The notes under the pieces are model-generated. The model worked only from the letters and a program-made list of their open reading frames with translations. It did no database searches and was not told the DNA's origin. A stretch of 35,084 nucleotides of DNA from an uncultured Pelagibacteraceae bacterium (GTDB taxonomy: Bacteria > Pseudomonadota > Alphaproteobacteria > Pelagibacterales > AG-422-B15): contig CACKXV010000008.1 of the NCBI GenBank assembly GCA_902604225.1, forward strand, positions 1 to 35,084, read 5' to 3'. Positions 17,175 through 30,616 of the stretch are shown here, one piece after another (positions within the stretch are counted from its first letter, which is position 1; each line of letters begins with the position of its first letter). The translations under genes and the position numbers were made by a program.

Positions 17175-18001
17175 TACACACTCTCCAATAGTGACATTAA
17201 TTCGTCACTAGCACCCACTTTAATTTCATGCCATATCTGAAAAGAGCAAGCTGCTTGTTCAATTAACATGCGTAATCCATTTTGAACTTTTAAACCTTTT
17301 GCTTCCGCTTGTTCTAAAAAACTGGATCGCTTAGGGTTATAAATTAAATCATAAATAAATGTGTCCATTTCTATATTTTCAAAACTCAAAATATTATTAT
17401 GCTCTCCTTCCTTTTGCCCAAGGCTAGTTGTGTTAACAATGAACGATGAGGAGTTAGCGTAATTATCCAACTCTTCTGTGCTTACGGGACTTGAGTTTAT
17501 TGATAAATCATTAAGCAAAATCACTGCTTTTTCAGGTGTTCTGTTAAACAATCTCACCTGGCTTCCCAATTCGTTTAACGCATGAACGACGGACCTGGCG
17601 GAGCCCCCGGCGCCAAGAACGAGTGTCTTTTTGTTAGTAATATTTTCTTCTATTGTTTTCTTATCTAAAGAATTAATGAAACCAACGGCGTCAGTATTGT
17701 CAGCATTTATTTTGTCAGAGCTTAGGGTAAGAGTATTGGCTGACCTGAGTTTTTTTGAAACGTTAGATATTTCATCACTGATACTAAACGCGAGTTCTTT
17801 GAGGGGGACCGTAACATTTAAACCTCCGTAACCTTCTGCCTTAAGGTTGTTGATCTGTTCTTCAAACTTATTTGGATCTACATTTATTTTCTCGTATGGC
17901 TTTGTATTCAGTCCCAATTCCTTAATCCAATGATTATGAATAATCGGTGAAAGACTGTGGTCAACTGGAAAACCTATAACCGCCGTTCTGTCAGTGGCCA
18001 T
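17174..18001 (-). CDS. aroE: Shikimate dehydrogenase (NADP+)
   Basis: It reduces 3-dehydroshikimate to shikimate in aromatic amino-acid synthesis. The 275-residue protein has the shikimate-binding SLSPIIHN, the catalytic Lys in NVTVPLKE, the Asp in ADNTDAVGF, and the NADP loop GAGGSARSVVHAL followed by FNRTPEKA, whose Arg contacts the 2'-phosphate. The ATG at 18001 (MATDRTAVIG) is preferred to a TTG nine bases upstream; it overlaps the maf end by 11 bases. Confidence 0.96.
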   Translation of the reverse strand: MATDRTAVIGFPVDHSLSPIIHNHWIKELGLNTKPYEKINVDPNKFEEQINNLKAEGYGGLNVTVPLKELAFSISDEISNVSKKLRSANTLTLSSDKINADNTDAVGFINSLDKKTIEENITNKKTLVLGAGGSARSVVHALNELGSQVRLFNRTPEKAVILLNDLSINSSPVSTEELDNYANSSSFIVNTTSLGQKEGEHNNILSFENIEMDTFIYDLIYNPKRSSFLEQAEAKGLKVQNGLRMLIEQAACSFQIWHEIKVGASDELMSLLESV

Positions 18002-18593
18002 TGTTTTCAAACAACATGCCGTTGTCCCATAAAAATTGTGTCAGTGGTATCATTGATATTCCTTGTATTGAGAATAAATCACTGCCGACACGCTCAAACA
18101 ATTTTATACCTTCTTCTTCAATTGCATAAACCCCGACTAAGCCAAGTATCTTTTCATCAACACTCTCTAAGTATTCTTTGATGACTTCTTCATCAAGTAT
18201 TCTCATTTTCATTTTTCCTCTATCAACATATTTCCATATTATATTGTTTTCTCTAGCAACTACCGTGGTTGTTATAAGGGTGTGTTCCTTTCCACTCATG
18301 CTCTTTAGTTGTTCGTGAGCTTCGTCAAAGTTTTTTGCTTTATTAACCAGCTTACCATTTAGGTCCAATCCTTGATCGGATCCTATAACTAAACCATCAT
18401 TTGACATGGATGCTTTTAAAGCCTTCATCTCAGCCAGCTTTATAACAATCTCTTCTGGTGAACTATCAGACATGGATAGTTTAATTTCATCCTCATCAAC
18501 ACCATGATCAACTGTTTTAAATTTTATTTTGGCATTTGTTAAAAGTCTTGAGCGTGTTTGACTTTTAGACGCTAGTGTTATTTGTGTGTTCAT
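17991..18593 (-). CDS. maf: Maf-like nucleoside triphosphate pyrophosphatase
   Basis: Maf proteins hydrolyse non-canonical or modified nucleoside triphosphates and are linked to septum control. The 200-residue protein starts MNTQITLASKSQTRSRLLTN, the ASxSxxRxxLL nucleotide-binding motif, and has the catalytic acidic region IGSDQGLDLNGKLVNKA plus GLVGVYAIEEEG near the C-terminus. Which Maf subclass, and so which base it prefers, is not clear. It is the first leftward gene from the putative origin. Confidence 0.93.
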   Translation of the reverse strand: MNTQITLASKSQTRSRLLTNAKIKFKTVDHGVDEDEIKLSMSDSSPEEIVIKLAEMKALKASMSNDGLVIGSDQGLDLNGKLVNKAKNFDEAHEQLKSMSGKEHTLITTTVVARENNIIWKYVDRGKMKMRILDEEVIKEYLESVDEKILGLVGVYAIEEEGIKLFERVGSDLFSIQGISMIPLTQFLWDNGMLFENNGH

Positions 18594-18868
18594 AAGCTAT
18601 TAACAACCTGAGTAACCAGTGTGGATATATATTATATGTTTACTGTTTTTAAACATTTACAATATTTTGGCCTTTTTATCCTATATTTTCTTGCCTTTCA
18701 TCCACCTGTGGATAATGCCTCAACCATTATTCTACCTTGTGGGTAATATCACAAATGCTCTACATATCCTCGTTAAAGACATGTATTGATTTGTGGGCAA
18801 GTAAGAGCTTTTTATATATACACATCATCACAGGTACATAAACTAATACTACCTTATATATATATTAT
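18594..18868. other. Putative chromosomal replication origin (oriC)
   Basis: This 275-base stretch has no gene and is the longest gap in the window. It holds one perfect DnaA box and three near-matches (see the separate entry), with AT-rich tracts, notably 18807-18822 and 18853-18870 next to hemE, that could serve as the unwinding element. It lies between maf and hemE, close to the arrangement around oriC in Caulobacter and Rickettsia, where hemE is the landmark. Genes diverge from it on both sides. parS and parAB lie 9.7 kb to the right. No CtrA site of the form TTAA-N7-TTAA was found. Confidence 0.78.
18620..18800 (+). promoter_or_regulatory. Cluster of DnaA-box-like 9-mers
   Basis: All read in the same direction as TGTGGATAA, the reverse complement of the consensus TTATCCACA. 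TGTGGATAT at 18620-18628 has one mismatch, TGTGGATAA at 18707-18715 is perfect, TGTGGGTAA at 18738-18746 has one mismatch and TGTGGGCAA at 18792-18800 has two. A fifth, opposite copy TCATCCACC (18698-18706) abuts the perfect box. Four same-orientation boxes in 181 bases are far above what I notice elsewhere in the window. Confidence 0.75.
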
Positions 18869-19852
18869 ATGAGTATTCTTATAGAAACACTAAAAGGCAA
18901 AAAAACAAAAACTCCCATTTGGTTAATGAGACAGGCGGGAAGACATTTGCCTGAATATATTAAAATAAGACAAAAATATAAAGACCTTATGGAAATGTTT
19001 CTTGATCCTGAGGTGGTAACCAAAATCTCACTTCAACCTGTAAGGCGATATGGGCTGGACGCATGCATAGTGTTCTCTGATATATTAATGATCCCTTATG
19101 CATCTGGATGCGATGTTAGTTTTAAGGAGGGCGTGGGTCCTCAAGTTAAATTTAAAGAGAAATTTAATTTTGAATCACACAAGCTGAACCCAGTTATAAA
19201 AGGCATTGAAAACATCAAAGAGGCATCCGAAGTTCCCTTAATCGGATTTGTAGGCGGACCCTGGACAACGTTGTTGTATTGTTTGTTTGATAAAGAAGAA
19301 AGATCACAAATGAACAAAGGCCTCATTCATAAAAATGAAAAAAGAATAAACAATCATATCGAAGACCTAACCGACATAATTTCTAATTACGCAGTGCAAC
19401 AAGTAAATGCGGGCATTGACGCATTTCAAATATTTGAGTCTGCAGCTCAAGATCTTGAAGACGAATATTTCGATCGATGGTGCCTAAAGCCTACACAAAA
19501 AATTATTCATTCGATAAAAAGTAAAACAGATATACCTATTATTGGATTCCCAAGAAAAACAAGTAAAGAAGGATATGTGAAATATTCAAATATAGATAAA
19601 CTTGATTGTATAAGCTTAGATTACGATTTTGATTTGGACCATATCAATAAACTAAACCCAAATGTTGCCTTTCAAGGAAATCTAAACCCAACAGCCTTAT
19701 TGGCAGAGAATAATATCCTGCAAGAAGAGTTGGATAAAATATTAATTGCTTTTAAAGATAGAGCACATATTTTTAATCTTGGGCATGGGGTGTTACCAAA
19801 CACCTCCATTAAGAAAGTAGAAGAACTCGTAAACACAATAAGAGCAAAATGA
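18869..19852 (+). CDS. hemE: Uroporphyrinogen decarboxylase
   Basis: It decarboxylates the four acetate side chains of uroporphyrinogen III to give coproporphyrinogen III. The 327-residue protein has the N-terminal signature TPIWLMRQAGRHLPEY (substrate-binding Arg residues), CIVFSDILMIPYASG with the active-site Asp, and GFVGGPWTTLLY. HGVLPNTS near the C-terminus is also standard. It is the first rightward gene beyond the putative origin and heads hemE-hemH-hemJ. Its stop overlaps the hemH start as ATGA. Confidence 0.98.
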   Translation: MSILIETLKGKKTKTPIWLMRQAGRHLPEYIKIRQKYKDLMEMFLDPEVVTKISLQPVRRYGLDACIVFSDILMIPYASGCDVSFKEGVGPQVKFKEKFNFESHKLNPVIKGIENIKEASEVPLIGFVGGPWTTLLYCLFDKEERSQMNKGLIHKNEKRINNHIEDLTDIISNYAVQQVNAGIDAFQIFESAAQDLEDEYFDRWCLKPTQKIIHSIKSKTDIPIIGFPRKTSKEGYVKYSNIDKLDCISLDYDFDLDHINKLNPNVAFQGNLNPTALLAENNILQEELDKILIAFKDRAHIFNLGHGVLPNTSIKKVEELVNTIRAK

Positions 19853-20865
19853 AAACAGCAGTAGTATTATTTAATTTGGGTGGACCCGACAAACAAGAAA
19901 GTGTGAGACCTTTTCTATTCAATCTTTTTAATGATCCAAACATATTTAAGTTACCCAATCCGTTTCGCTTCTTATTAGCAAAACTGATCTCAACTTTGAG
20001 GACAAAAGAGGCAACTGAAATATACTCTGAAATTGGCGGTAAATCACCAATTTTGGACATCACAAACGATCAGGCCACTGCACTTGAAGGGGCCTTAGCA
20101 ATACAGGGCATGCCCTCCAAGGTGTTTGTGTGTATGCGATACTGGCATCCTATGACAACCGAAATCGTTAAAAAGGTAAAAGATTACAATCCAGATAATA
20201 TTTTCTTGCTTCCCCTTTATCCACAATACTCAACTACAACCACCAAATCTTCTTTAGACCTTTGGTTTAAAGAGGCAAAGAAACAAAACTTATCAGCCCC
20301 AACAAAATATACTTGCTGTTATCCAATGGATAAGAAATTCATAGAGTCTCATCAGCGTTTAATACAAAAGAAAATAGATCACATTAAAGATAAAAAGATC
20401 AGGATTTTATTCTCTGCTCACAGCTTGCCTGTATCAATTATTAAAGGCGGTGATCCGTATCAATGGCAGGTTGAACAAACTGTAAGTGCTGTGATTGCCG
20501 GACTTAAAGGATATGATAATCATGTATTAGCTTATCAGAGCAAGGTGACACCTGTTAAGTGGCTTGAACCATCTACACCAAGTGAGATTGAAAAAGCGAT
20601 TAAAGAAGATGCAGCTATTATTATCGTCCCGATTGCTTTTGTTTCAGACCACTCTGAAACTTTAGTAGAGCTTGATATTGAATATAAAGAAATGGCAGAT
20701 GAAATGGGTTACAAACATTATTTTCGTTCAGAGTCTTTAAACATTGATTCTGTATTTATAGATAGTTTAGCTGAAATAGTTACCAAATCAGATAAGACTA
20801 ACAAAGAAAATATTGCTGAAAAAATTTGTCCAACGACATTTAAACGGTGCTATCAGCAAATATAA
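19849..20865 (+). CDS. hemH: Ferrochelatase
   Basis: It inserts ferrous iron into protoporphyrin IX, the last step of haem b synthesis, at the inner membrane. The 338-residue protein begins AVVLFNLGGPDKQESVRPF, has the catalytic His in LFSAHSLPVSIIKGGDPY and the acidic partner in FVSDHSETLVELDIEY. Length is normal. It overlaps hemE by 4 bases and hemJ by 1, so these three haem genes are surely one transcript. Confidence 0.98.
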   Translation: MKTAVVLFNLGGPDKQESVRPFLFNLFNDPNIFKLPNPFRFLLAKLISTLRTKEATEIYSEIGGKSPILDITNDQATALEGALAIQGMPSKVFVCMRYWHPMTTEIVKKVKDYNPDNIFLLPLYPQYSTTTTKSSLDLWFKEAKKQNLSAPTKYTCCYPMDKKFIESHQRLIQKKIDHIKDKKIRILFSAHSLPVSIIKGGDPYQWQVEQTVSAVIAGLKGYDNHVLAYQSKVTPVKWLEPSTPSEIEKAIKEDAAIIIVPIAFVSDHSETLVELDIEYKEMADEMGYKHYFRSESLNIDSVFIDSLAEIVTKSDKTNKENIAEKICPTTFKRCYQQI

Positions 20866-22660: not shown

Positions 22661-22688
22661 CAATTACCCTTCAGCCTCTAAAATTGAA
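22661..22688 (+). repeat. 28-bp direct repeat, copy A (end of the deiminase gene)
   Basis: It begins CAATTACCCTTCAGCCTC and ends TAAAATTGAA. It is identical over 28 bases to 23789-23816 and differs in the base on either side. This copy lies between the rho stop and the deiminase stop and contains the last codons and TAG of the deiminase gene (22678-22688). Its outer bases CAATT and AATTG are inverted relative to each other. Confidence 0.95.
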
Positions 22689-23781
22689 AAGCTGGTTGAT
22701 CATTTGTATGACAATGTATTCCACCTCCAGCTGCCCAAGAGCTTAACATTTCAACCAGATGCACATCACGATTTGGAAAATATTTTTCTATACGAGATTT
22801 CGCTGGGATGTCTGTATCTGGATTTCCAAAACCAGGCACAATTACAAATCCATTTCCTACTAACCAATTCATGTAATTGGTGTCAAATGTTTGCCCGCTG
22901 TACTGAACATAGCCTTCGATAGGTTCTCTTATTACATTAAACCCGGATTTCTCAATTATTTCAGCTGCCTTGTCATAAATCTCAGCGTCCTTACTATCTG
23001 GCTGACACAATGACCGGGTTGTACACTGAACAACAACTGCAGTTGTTTGATCAATAAATCGAGCTATACCATCAATGTGCCCTTTGGTGAGATCTCCATT
23101 TGGAATACCCTCAATAAAAATGACTTTAGATACGCCGAAGTATTTTTTTAGATCAAGTTGCGCCTGCTGTTTACTGTAGTTTAAGTTTCTGCTGGGGTCA
23201 CCAATGGTGCTCCAATTTAATATAACTGTATCTAATCCATTAAATTCTAAATTACCTCGTTCGTGTACTATGTCTATATGATCAACAGGTAAATTTAAAA
23301 TCTCACCAATCTTATTTGGGACTTCATTATCTAAATTAAAAGAGACATCTGAACCAAAAGCACCACCCCATGCATCAAAATTCCAATTTTGAATTCTTAG
23401 TTCATTATCATTAAAAACATAAACAGGTCCATTGTCTCTCATCCAAGCATTATCATTGGGCACTTTGTGCCAATGAATATTGTTTTGCAGTGGGTCGGAA
23501 TCTATATCTAAAATTGATTTTTGTGCTTCTGCATAAATCTGATCTGAATGATAGAGAATATGTAATTTTTCGTATCGTGAAATGATATCAGCCATCTTCG
23601 CAAAAGTTGGCTCATAACTTTTTTCCCAAAAACCAGGCCATTGCATCCATATTGCCTCTTGTGGCTCCCATTCCGCTGGAACACGCTTAGCCCCATGTGT
23701 TGCTTCTTCAGCGGCTTGAATACTAATGCTCATCATAAAAAATATCAATGTGAGGAAGAGAATCCAAATTTTATTTTTCAA
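22678..23781 (-). CDS. Secreted agmatine deiminase-family enzyme
   Basis: This is an enzyme of the agmatine deiminase/bacterial peptidylarginine deiminase fold, which hydrolyses guanidines such as agmatine to N-carbamoylputrescine and ammonia. The 367-residue protein has an N-terminal signal peptide (KNK, hydrophobic core, SIQA cleavage site), so it should act in the periplasm or outside. The fold motifs EWEPQEAIWMQWP, NDNAWMRDNGPVYV, HERGNLEFNG and KGHIDGIARF are present, with the nucleophile Cys357 in GGGIHCHTND. The start is TTG at 23781; later ATGs would destroy the signal. It is bracketed by direct and inverted repeats and sits at the apt 3' end, suggesting insertion. The substrate could be agmatine or another guanidine. 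Confidence 0.87.
   Translation of the reverse strand: MKNKIWILFLTLIFFMMSISIQAAEEATHGAKRVPAEWEPQEAIWMQWPGFWEKSYEPTFAKMADIISRYEKLHILYHSDQIYAEAQKSILDIDSDPLQNNIHWHKVPNDNAWMRDNGPVYVFNDNELRIQNWNFDAWGGAFGSDVSFNLDNEVPNKIGEILNLPVDHIDIVHERGNLEFNGLDTVILNWSTIGDPSRNLNYSKQQAQLDLKKYFGVSKVIFIEGIPNGDLTKGHIDGIARFIDQTTAVVVQCTTRSLCQPDSKDAEIYDKAAEIIEKSGFNVIREPIEGYVQYSGQTFDTNYMNWLVGNGFVIVPGFGNPDTDIPAKSRIEKYFPNRDVHLVEMLSSWAAGGGIHCHTNDQPAFQF
22679..22690 (+). repeat. 12-bp inverted repeat, arm 1
   Basis: TAAAATTGAAAA here is the exact reverse complement of TTTTCAATTTTA at 23775-23786. The two arms enclose the deiminase gene (1108 bases from end to end). This arm overlaps the end of direct-repeat copy A and the gene's stop codon. 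Confidence 0.85.
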
Positions 23782-28342: not shown

Positions 28343-28966
28343 ATGGAGGATTCGCCAGAAGCTCTTATGGAGCTAAAAAGTAATGTTTCACGTGAAACAA
28401 TCAATAAACTCGATGTTTACAGATCATTGATACTGGCCGAAAAGCAAAGCCTTATATCAAAAAAGGATAAAAACCTTCTTTGGATTAGGCATTTTTATGA
28501 TTCGCTCCGAATAAGTGATTTGATTCGTGAAAATAAACAAAACATAATCGATATTGGCAGCGGATCAGGTCTTCCAGGAATTCCGTTATCATTGTTTTAT
28601 AATGGCGAAAATTCAATATTTTTGTGTGAAAATCGAAGGAAAAGAGCAGATTTTCTAGAGCACTGCATAGATGCTCTCAAACTTAAGAATACCTATGTGA
28701 TTCCTCACAAAGTTGAAAAAGCAACAAATCAAAAATTTGATGTTGTTCTAGCTAGAGCAGTTGGACGATTAAATGATCTATTATCAATAAGTTATAACAT
28801 ATCGAAAAAAAGTACTACATTCCTTTTTCATAAAGGTATACATATAGATGATGAGATTGCTGAAGCCACTAAATATTGGAAATTTGATCATAAACTGCAT
28901 GAAAACAGTGTTGAAAAGGGATCTTATATTTTAGAACTAAATAATGTAATTAAATCAAATACTTAG
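28343..28966 (+). CDS. rsmG: 16S rRNA (guanine-527 N7)-methyltransferase RsmG
   Basis: It methylates G527 in the 530 loop of 16S rRNA; loss gives low-level streptomycin resistance in known bacteria. The 207-residue protein has the N-terminal helix NVSRETINKLDVYRSLI, then LWIRHFYDSLR, the SAM-binding IDIGSGSGLPGIPL and CENRRKRADFLEHC. The codons for NVSRET include a perfect parS site. The ATG at 28343 lies 10 bases after the mnmG stop. parA follows 1 base later. Confidence 0.96.
   Translation: MEDSPEALMELKSNVSRETINKLDVYRSLILAEKQSLISKKDKNLLWIRHFYDSLRISDLIRENKQNIIDIGSGSGLPGIPLSLFYNGENSIFLCENRRKRADFLEHCIDALKLKNTYVIPHKVEKATNQKFDVVLARAVGRLNDLLSISYNISKKSTTFLFHKGIHIDDEIAEATKYWKFDHKLHENSVEKGSYILELNNVIKSNT
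28384..28399. other. parS partition site inside rsmG
   Basis: TGTTTCACGTGAAACA is a perfect 16-base palindrome and an exact match to the ParB-binding consensus TGTTNCACGTGAAACA. It encodes VSRET in RsmG, and parA and parB start about 0.6 and 1.4 kb downstream. I saw no second full copy in this window; half-sites (GTTTCACG) occur near 25321 and 34911. Confidence 0.95.
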
Positions 28967-28967
28967 T

Positions 28968-29756
28968 ATGAAAAGGAAAATAATTGCTATTTCTAATCAA
29001 AAAGGAGGGGTCGGAAAGACGACCACAGCTATAAACTTATCCACAGCCCTCGCGGCGACAGGCCAAAAAGTATTAATCATTGATCTAGATCCTCAGGGTA
29101 ATGCAAGTACAGGTTTAGGGGTCGATTATGGTCAGAGGGAAAATTCTATTTACGAAGTATTAGCGGGACAAGCAAACATTTCAGATTCCATTCGAAAAAC
29201 CGAAATTGATAATCTTTATTTAATTCCTTCAACAGTTGATTTGTCTGGAATTGAACCTGAACTTGCTGACGTTAATGATCGAGCTTTCACATTAAAAAAT
29301 ATTTTTAACGCAAATGAAAAATTAAATGAGTTTGATTTTATTTTTATTGATTGCCCACCCGCGTTAAGTTTATTGACTGTCATGGCAATGACGACAGCCA
29401 ATGCAATTATTGTTCCATTGCAATGTGAATTCTTCGCGCTCGAAGGCCTCAGTCAGCTAATTAAAACAATTGAACGTGTAAGACAGAATCTAAATCCTGG
29501 TTTATCTATTGATGGGATTGTTTTGACGATGTACGACAGCAGAAACAAATTGTCTTCCCAAGTTGCAACAGACGTTAGAAATCATTTACGGGAACAAGTT
29601 TATGAAACCATTATACCTCGTAATGTAAGAGTTTCAGAAGCACCATCATTTGGGATGCCTGCTTTAATTTATGATCAAAGAGCATCAGGCAGTCAGGCGT
29701 ATTTAAGTCTTGCAAATGAAGTCATTAAACAAAATAAAGAACAAGAGGCAGCATAG
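28968..29756 (+). CDS. parA: Chromosome partitioning ATPase ParA
   Basis: The DNA-binding ATPase drives ParB-parS complexes apart after replication. The 262-residue protein has the deviant Walker A KGGVGKTT (residues 12-19) with signature Lys, LIIDLDPQGNASTGLG, Walker B FIFIDCPPAL, and VLTMYDSRNKLSSQV. It is the short chromosomal type without an extra N-terminal DNA-binding domain. It ends one base inside parB (TAGTG) and so is co-translated with it. Confidence 0.97.
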   Translation: MKRKIIAISNQKGGVGKTTTAINLSTALAATGQKVLIIDLDPQGNASTGLGVDYGQRENSIYEVLAGQANISDSIRKTEIDNLYLIPSTVDLSGIEPELADVNDRAFTLKNIFNANEKLNEFDFIFIDCPPALSLLTVMAMTTANAIIVPLQCEFFALEGLSQLIKTIERVRQNLNPGLSIDGIVLTMYDSRNKLSSQVATDVRNHLREQVYETIIPRNVRVSEAPSFGMPALIYDQRASGSQAYLSLANEVIKQNKEQEAA

Positions 29757-30616
29757 TGGTTACAAACACAACAAAAAAAGGTTTAGGACGTGGTCTTTCA
29801 TCTTTAATGGGAGATACGGAAACTGTACAAACAAAAAATACCAACGTTGGTCAAGAAACAAAAATACCAATCGCTAATTTAAAACCAAGTCCTTCTCAAC
29901 CAAGAAGATTATTTAATAAAAATAGTATTAATGAATTGGCTGACTCCATAAAAGCAAAAGGGTTAGTACAACCATTAGTGGTTAGACCATCGCCTTCTGA
30001 TGTCAATAGTTATGAAATTATTGCAGGTGAGAGAAGATGGCGCGCAGCACAAATTGCACAACTGCACGAGGTACCTGTTGTAATAAGAAACTTTAATGAC
30101 ACCGAAGCACTTGAAATCGCCATTATTGAAAATGTCCAACGATCAGATCTTTCACCAATTGAAGAAGCTGCAGGTTATAAAAGATTGATAGAAAATCATG
30201 GTCATACCCAAGAAGATTTGTCAGGAATTGTGGGTAAAAGCAGGAGCCACATAGCGAATATCATTCGACTGCTATCTTTGCCACAATCAATCCAAGACAT
30301 GATAACCGAAGGAAAAATATCATCAGGTCATGCGCGCGCAATTATGAACAGTGCATTTCCAGAGCAACTTGCAGAAAAAATTATTAACGAAAATTTAAGC
30401 GTAAGGGACGCAGAAAATTTAGCAAAAGATAAAAAAGGTATTATAAAAAAAATAAAACTTAAAGACCCCGATACGATTGATCTTGAAAACAAAATTTCAG
30501 AAAAACTCGGCTTGGCCACCAGCATTAACCATAAAGGTAAAAAAGGTGGCAGTATAAAAATTGATTACAAAACCCTTGATCAATTAGAGATGATTACGCA
30601 AAAGCTTAAAAACTAA
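29756..30616 (+). CDS. parB: Chromosome partitioning protein ParB (CTPase)
   Basis: ParB binds parS, clamps DNA using CTP and spreads. The 286-residue protein starts with GTG, has the ParA-contact tail GLGRGLSSLMGD, the CTP-binding boxes (PSPSQPRRLFN, then IAGERRWRAAQIA near 89-101, and ENVQRSDLSPIEEA), the helix-turn-helix TQEDLSGIVGKSRSHIANIIRLL, and a C-terminal dimer domain. It is complete. The stop overlaps the end of holA on the other strand by 4 bases. Its target parS lies about 1.4 kb upstream. Confidence 0.97.
   Translation: MVTNTTKKGLGRGLSSLMGDTETVQTKNTNVGQETKIPIANLKPSPSQPRRLFNKNSINELADSIKAKGLVQPLVVRPSPSDVNSYEIIAGERRWRAAQIAQLHEVPVVIRNFNDTEALEIAIIENVQRSDLSPIEEAAGYKRLIENHGHTQEDLSGIVGKSRSHIANIIRLLSLPQSIQDMITEGKISSGHARAIMNSAFPEQLAEKIINENLSVRDAENLAKDKKGIIKKIKLKDPDTIDLENKISEKLGLATSINHKGKKGGSIKIDYKTLDQLEMITQKLKN

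Follow-up and report, generated by a model that had tools for sequence, protein, structure and literature searches.

Among the chromosomal replication origins described in Alphaproteobacteria, the closest to the locus reported here are Cori of Caulobacter crescentus, a hemE/COG1806 origin (PMC1914354, PMC6399470), and the predicted origins of the Rickettsiales, which share the hemE boundary (PMC1914354), while a DnaA-box/DnaA-trio module for strand opening has been described as the basal unwinding system (BUS; PMC8287927). Among the listed results of a search of open literature there was no paper describing a replication origin sequence from the order Pelagibacterales (SAR11); origin databases such as DoriC may hold predictions. 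Here we analysed a 35,084-bp stretch of the draft genome of an uncultured Pelagibacteraceae bacterium (contig CACKXV010000008.1, in the following the window), in which the 275-bp spacer between maf and hemE (18594-18868, unstranded) is, as judged from sequence comparison, very probably the chromosomal origin (oriC) of this SAR11-order bacterium. This reading, already put forward in an earlier note on the same DNA, is supported by the densest cluster of DnaA boxes in the 713 kb scanned, by conserved synteny and a nearly fixed spacer length, by the GC skew of a closed relative, by a nearby parS site and by a core element that is retained even where hemE has left the locus. The named genomes closest to that of the window come from single cells and metagenomes and carry the labels Pelagibacteraceae or Pelagibacterales.

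As recognized early on, the spacer is the longest gap without genes in the window, the next measuring 153 bp, and neither a tRNA nor an Rfam RNA was found in the window. The four DnaA-box-like 9-mers of the plus strand listed in the earlier note are all present at the positions given there, namely box 1 TGTGGATAT (18620-18628), the perfect box 2 TGTGGATAA (18707-18715), box 3 TGTGGGTAA (18738-18746) and box 4 TGTGGGCAA (18792-18800), which has two mismatches to the consensus; overlooked was box 5 on the minus strand (18816-18824, ATATACACA in plus-strand letters), which belongs to the most conserved sites. Overlapping box 5, a weak minus-strand box ATCATCACA, then GG (18824-18834), has TTATNCACA(GG) as its aligned counterpart in the sister family and in other alphaproteobacteria. 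An inverted pair TCATCCACC-TGTGGATAA (18698-18715, unstranded) encloses the perfect box 2, and its centre CCACCTGT reappears in the family's other genera, while the outer bases drift.

Counting as near-consensus those boxes that have at most one mismatch to TTATCCACA and retain CACA, the spacer holds three, whereas the genome averages 0.028 per 275 bp and no other stretch of this length in the 713 kb scanned from the 801-kb draft has more than two; TGTGGRTAW sites number three in the spacer and at most one in any other stretch of this length. The cluster is unique over these 713 kb, as is expected of a hemE-type oriC. The signal is the clustering of the boxes and not their number in the window, where TGTGGATAA with any one mismatch was observed 11 times versus 12 expected, which is no enrichment. 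Box 1 is unchanged in all 15 close relatives, the window counted among them, box 2 nearly so in 14, and boxes 4 and 5 are each invariant in 31/31 genus members. A lack of conservation of the 9-mers in close relatives, named beforehand as a possible refutation, is therefore not seen for boxes 1, 2 and 4, whereas across the genus boxes 1 to 3 drift, although still above background conservation; box 3 varies among relatives, with a box-like 9-mer at its position in most other genera.

The perfect box that the earlier note lists at 18707 is not the best-conserved one. In the alignment, conservation is highest in the hemE-proximal stretch 18792-18868, which comprises TGTGGGCAA, ATATACACA, CACAGG (to 18834), CTA repeats and an AT tract reaching the hemE ATG. 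The repeats form a DnaA-trio-like run CTA-ATA-CTA-CC on the plus strand (18843-18853), with (CTA)3-4 at the same place in other genera, and the adjoining AT tract (18854-18868, unstranded) is the proposed unwinding element. The AT-rich tracts near hemE that had been pointed out before are found in the final 30 bp of the spacer (87% AT), whereas the spacer as a whole exceeds the window only slightly (69% versus 66%). Invariant columns make up 62 of 98 in the elements and 44 of 177 in the remaining spacer of the genus alignment (p = 4e-10, a value that treats columns as independent, with the elements partly picked from the same alignment). The functional centre is probably this stretch beside hemE, rather than boxes 1 to 3. 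Its sequence is reminiscent of the DnaA-box/DnaA-trio module for unwinding, and other alphaproteobacteria show a comparable layout ahead of hemE, for example ATCCCCGTTATTCACAGGGATAAACAACTACTACC.

For a core model built from SAR11 sequences, the best site fell in the hemE-upstream region at 25 loci among 30 from other alphaproteobacteria; as 100 column-permuted models gave this outcome in 14.6 loci on average and in 22 at most, base composition accounts for much, but not all, of the result. Built without the window's genus, from other genera and alphaproteobacteria, the model ranks the window site first of 1.42 million positions, and built without the sister family it ranks the homologous site of the closed genome of a relative, G049, first of 2.4 million. 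A first motif model derived from GC-rich alphaproteobacteria picked other sites and was rejected as contaminated and composition-biased. The score of the CTA repeats lies above that of shuffled spacers in nearly all lineages, which are not independent of each other.

The genes flanking the spacer point outward, and the identities given to them previously are confirmed by Pfam: maf (17991-18593, minus strand) is the first gene leftward and hemE (18869-19852, plus strand; URO-D, 1.7e-79) the first rightward. The local order hslVU ... tim44-fxsA-secB-(nudix)-(dnaQ-like exonuclease)-coaE-aroE-maf | hemE-hemH-hemJ-rho ... mnmE-mnmG-rsmG-parA-parB belongs to a synteny, hslU-tim44-fxsA-secB-dnaQ-coaE-aroE-maf | hemE-hemH-rho, that is largely retained across the order. 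The spacer measures 265-287 bp in every member examined of the window's family and 238-286 bp, mostly 264-286, in the sister family, where a gene for the kinase/pyrophosphorylase PPPase (COG1806) sits between maf and the spacer. Besides adjacency to hemE, the usual COG1806 neighbour of hemE-type origins is accordingly found at the same place in the sister family. PF03618, the Pfam family of PPPase, is absent from all five genomes searched of the window's family (the window's own, G035, G038, G040 and G014), one of them rated 100% complete; loss of this gene probably explains why maf is the spacer's neighbour here. Further along the hemE side, 22678-23781 encodes an agmatine-deiminase-like protein, whose match is far under the family cut-off and split in two stretches.

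In G049, the cumulative GC skew has its minimum at 97.9 kb and its maximum at 675 kb. The homologous spacer occupies 66.8-67.1 kb, which puts its antipode near 667 kb; the minimum thus falls 31 kb from the spacer, and the maximum misses the antipode by no more than about 8 kb. In this closed relative the skew minimum, which according to the earlier note would refute the reading if it lay elsewhere, is hence in the vicinity of the spacer. Since a block bootstrap gives an origin interval of 20-240 kb, the skew supports the spacer as the origin without pinpointing it. No convincing match to a dif site was found in G049.

The partition system is likewise close to the spacer. A parS site, GTTTCACGTGAAAC (28385-28398, unstranded), lies within rsmG, 9.5 kb from the spacer, was the single perfect hit in the genome and is conserved in nine relatives; the partition genes parA-parB (28968-30616, plus strand) are on the hemE side, close to the proposed origin. 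Each of eight genomes, the window's and those of seven relatives, contains exactly one perfect GTTNCACGTGNAAC match; its distance to the spacer is 8-10 kb, except in G048 with about 20 kb, an origin-proximal parABS arrangement. DnaA boxes also occur outside the spacer, in parA (29037-29045, perfect), hemH (20217-20225, perfect) and parB (30229-30237), and 7 of the 25 TGTGGRTAW sites of the 713 kb fall on this 35-kb contig. The box in parA, which is separated from parS by 0.65 kb, also codes for the conserved residues L-S-T and is unchanged in nine relatives even where flanking codons vary, while the hemH box is mostly not conserved.

Divergent as maf and hemE are, the spacer could be nothing but their promoter region, with the DnaA-like 9-mers arising by chance or serving as sites of DnaA-controlled promoters, and the conserved core does reach the hemE start codon, where a promoter may exist alongside an origin. 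We consider the promoter-only explanation highly improbable, as it leaves the box density unmatched in 713 kb unaccounted for, and the promoter-like sites of the region are two weak ones, under the shuffle mean and none on the hemE strand. It is also at odds with one SAR11 genus (G048 and G051; loci L225 and L224) in which hemE lies hundreds of kb from the origin locus. There, PPPase faces rho with about 353 bp between them, and in this gap the core is still the best site of the locus, with 26.0 and 23.2 bits against 10.2 (overlapping the core) and 5.5 bits for the respective next-best sites, whereas the relocated hemE locus of G048, the one examined, contains no core element (best score 6.1). 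The core stays at PPPase-rho when hemE leaves and so belongs to the locus, not merely to a hemE promoter; as a landmark of the origin, the side of the gap with maf or PPPase is to be preferred to hemE alone. In this genus hemH and hemJ are gone from the origin locus as well, and its hemE is 30-32% identical to that of the window.

That the origin is nearby but elsewhere, such as beside dnaA about 62-66 kb off in relatives, fits the skew minimum of G049, which falls between the hemE spacer and dnaA, yet appears extremely unlikely, because the 1.5 kb preceding dnaA contain no near-consensus DnaA box in any of seven relatives, and neither does the retrieved stretch at the partial dnaA of the window's genome. 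The skew maximum almost antipodal to the hemE spacer and the location of parS by this spacer do not agree with a dnaA-side origin either.

Several observations weigh against placing the origin in the maf-hemE spacer. The skew resolves an origin only to tens of kb, and the G049 minimum is located halfway from hemE (67 kb) to dnaA (129.5 kb); G040 provides a partial profile with a shallow low at about 370-460 kb, around its spacer at 423.7 kb; and with the window's genome being a draft in 41 contigs and 56% complete, the skew evidence comes from relatives. When the core model is built only from the sister family or only from other alphaproteobacteria, the window site drops to rank 39 and rank 3309, respectively. 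The published trio rule, which asks for at least three trios no farther than 16 bp from a box with at most two mismatches, is narrowly missed in the window's genus, where in the window only three trios are present, the best box is 18 bp off and a nearer box has four mismatches; 13 of 52 SAR11 spacers satisfy the rule, all outside this genus. By simple consensus, with degenerate sites left unscored, the spacer contains no CtrA (TTAA-N7-TTAA), IHF or GANTC site.

If the maf-hemE spacer acts as oriC, ATP-DnaA would bind the spread boxes at 18620, 18707, 18738 and 18792 together with the box or boxes at 18816-18834, and from the latter would polymerise onto the CTA/ATA repeats at 18843-18853. The AT tract before hemE would then melt and the helicase be loaded there; two forks would depart, one past maf and the other past hemE-rho-mnmG-parAB, and ParB at parS (28385) would segregate the new origins. 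For this uncultured family, part of one of the most abundant groups of marine bacteria, the origin would thereby be narrowed down to 275 bp, which enables origin-to-terminus coverage estimates of growth rate for these genomes, with the core element as an in vitro target for studying DNA opening by SAR11 DnaA.

Compared with the known systems, the locus is well supported as an ordinary alphaproteobacterial hemE-type origin, built like those described and without surprise. With Cori it shares closely linked parS and, in the sister SAR11 family, the COG1806 neighbour, and in Caulobacter DnaA boxes occur at parS (PMC6399470); it differs from Cori in having maf instead of COG1806/PPPase in the window's family, in its spacer of about 275 bp and in the lack of simple-consensus CtrA, IHF and GANTC sites, of which CtrA and IHF sites are a feature of Cori that is not established as required in all alphaproteobacteria. 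The predicted origins of Rickettsia, Wolbachia, Ehrlichia and Anaplasma likewise combine the hemE boundary with an AT-rich spacer and DnaA boxes, but have COG1806 or COG1253 as the other neighbour, reported CtrA and IHF sites and spacers of greater length (385-620 bp in the listed cases; PMC1914354). With the BUS, order and orientation of tandem boxes, a short GG-containing linker, CTA-type trios and an AT tract are shared, although the window's genus, unlike other SAR11 genera, falls just short of its trio rule. As a tentative proposal, about which we are slightly more doubtful than confident, one homologous core, AATCCCC-GTTATNCACAGG-N5-8-CTACTACC-AT tract, might be shared in place across origins of the Alphaproteobacteria, tied to the locus and not to hemE, and might, in the SAR11 genus of the window, have diverged until boxes were weak and trios degenerate, which would imply a DnaA that tolerates or prefers altered sites.
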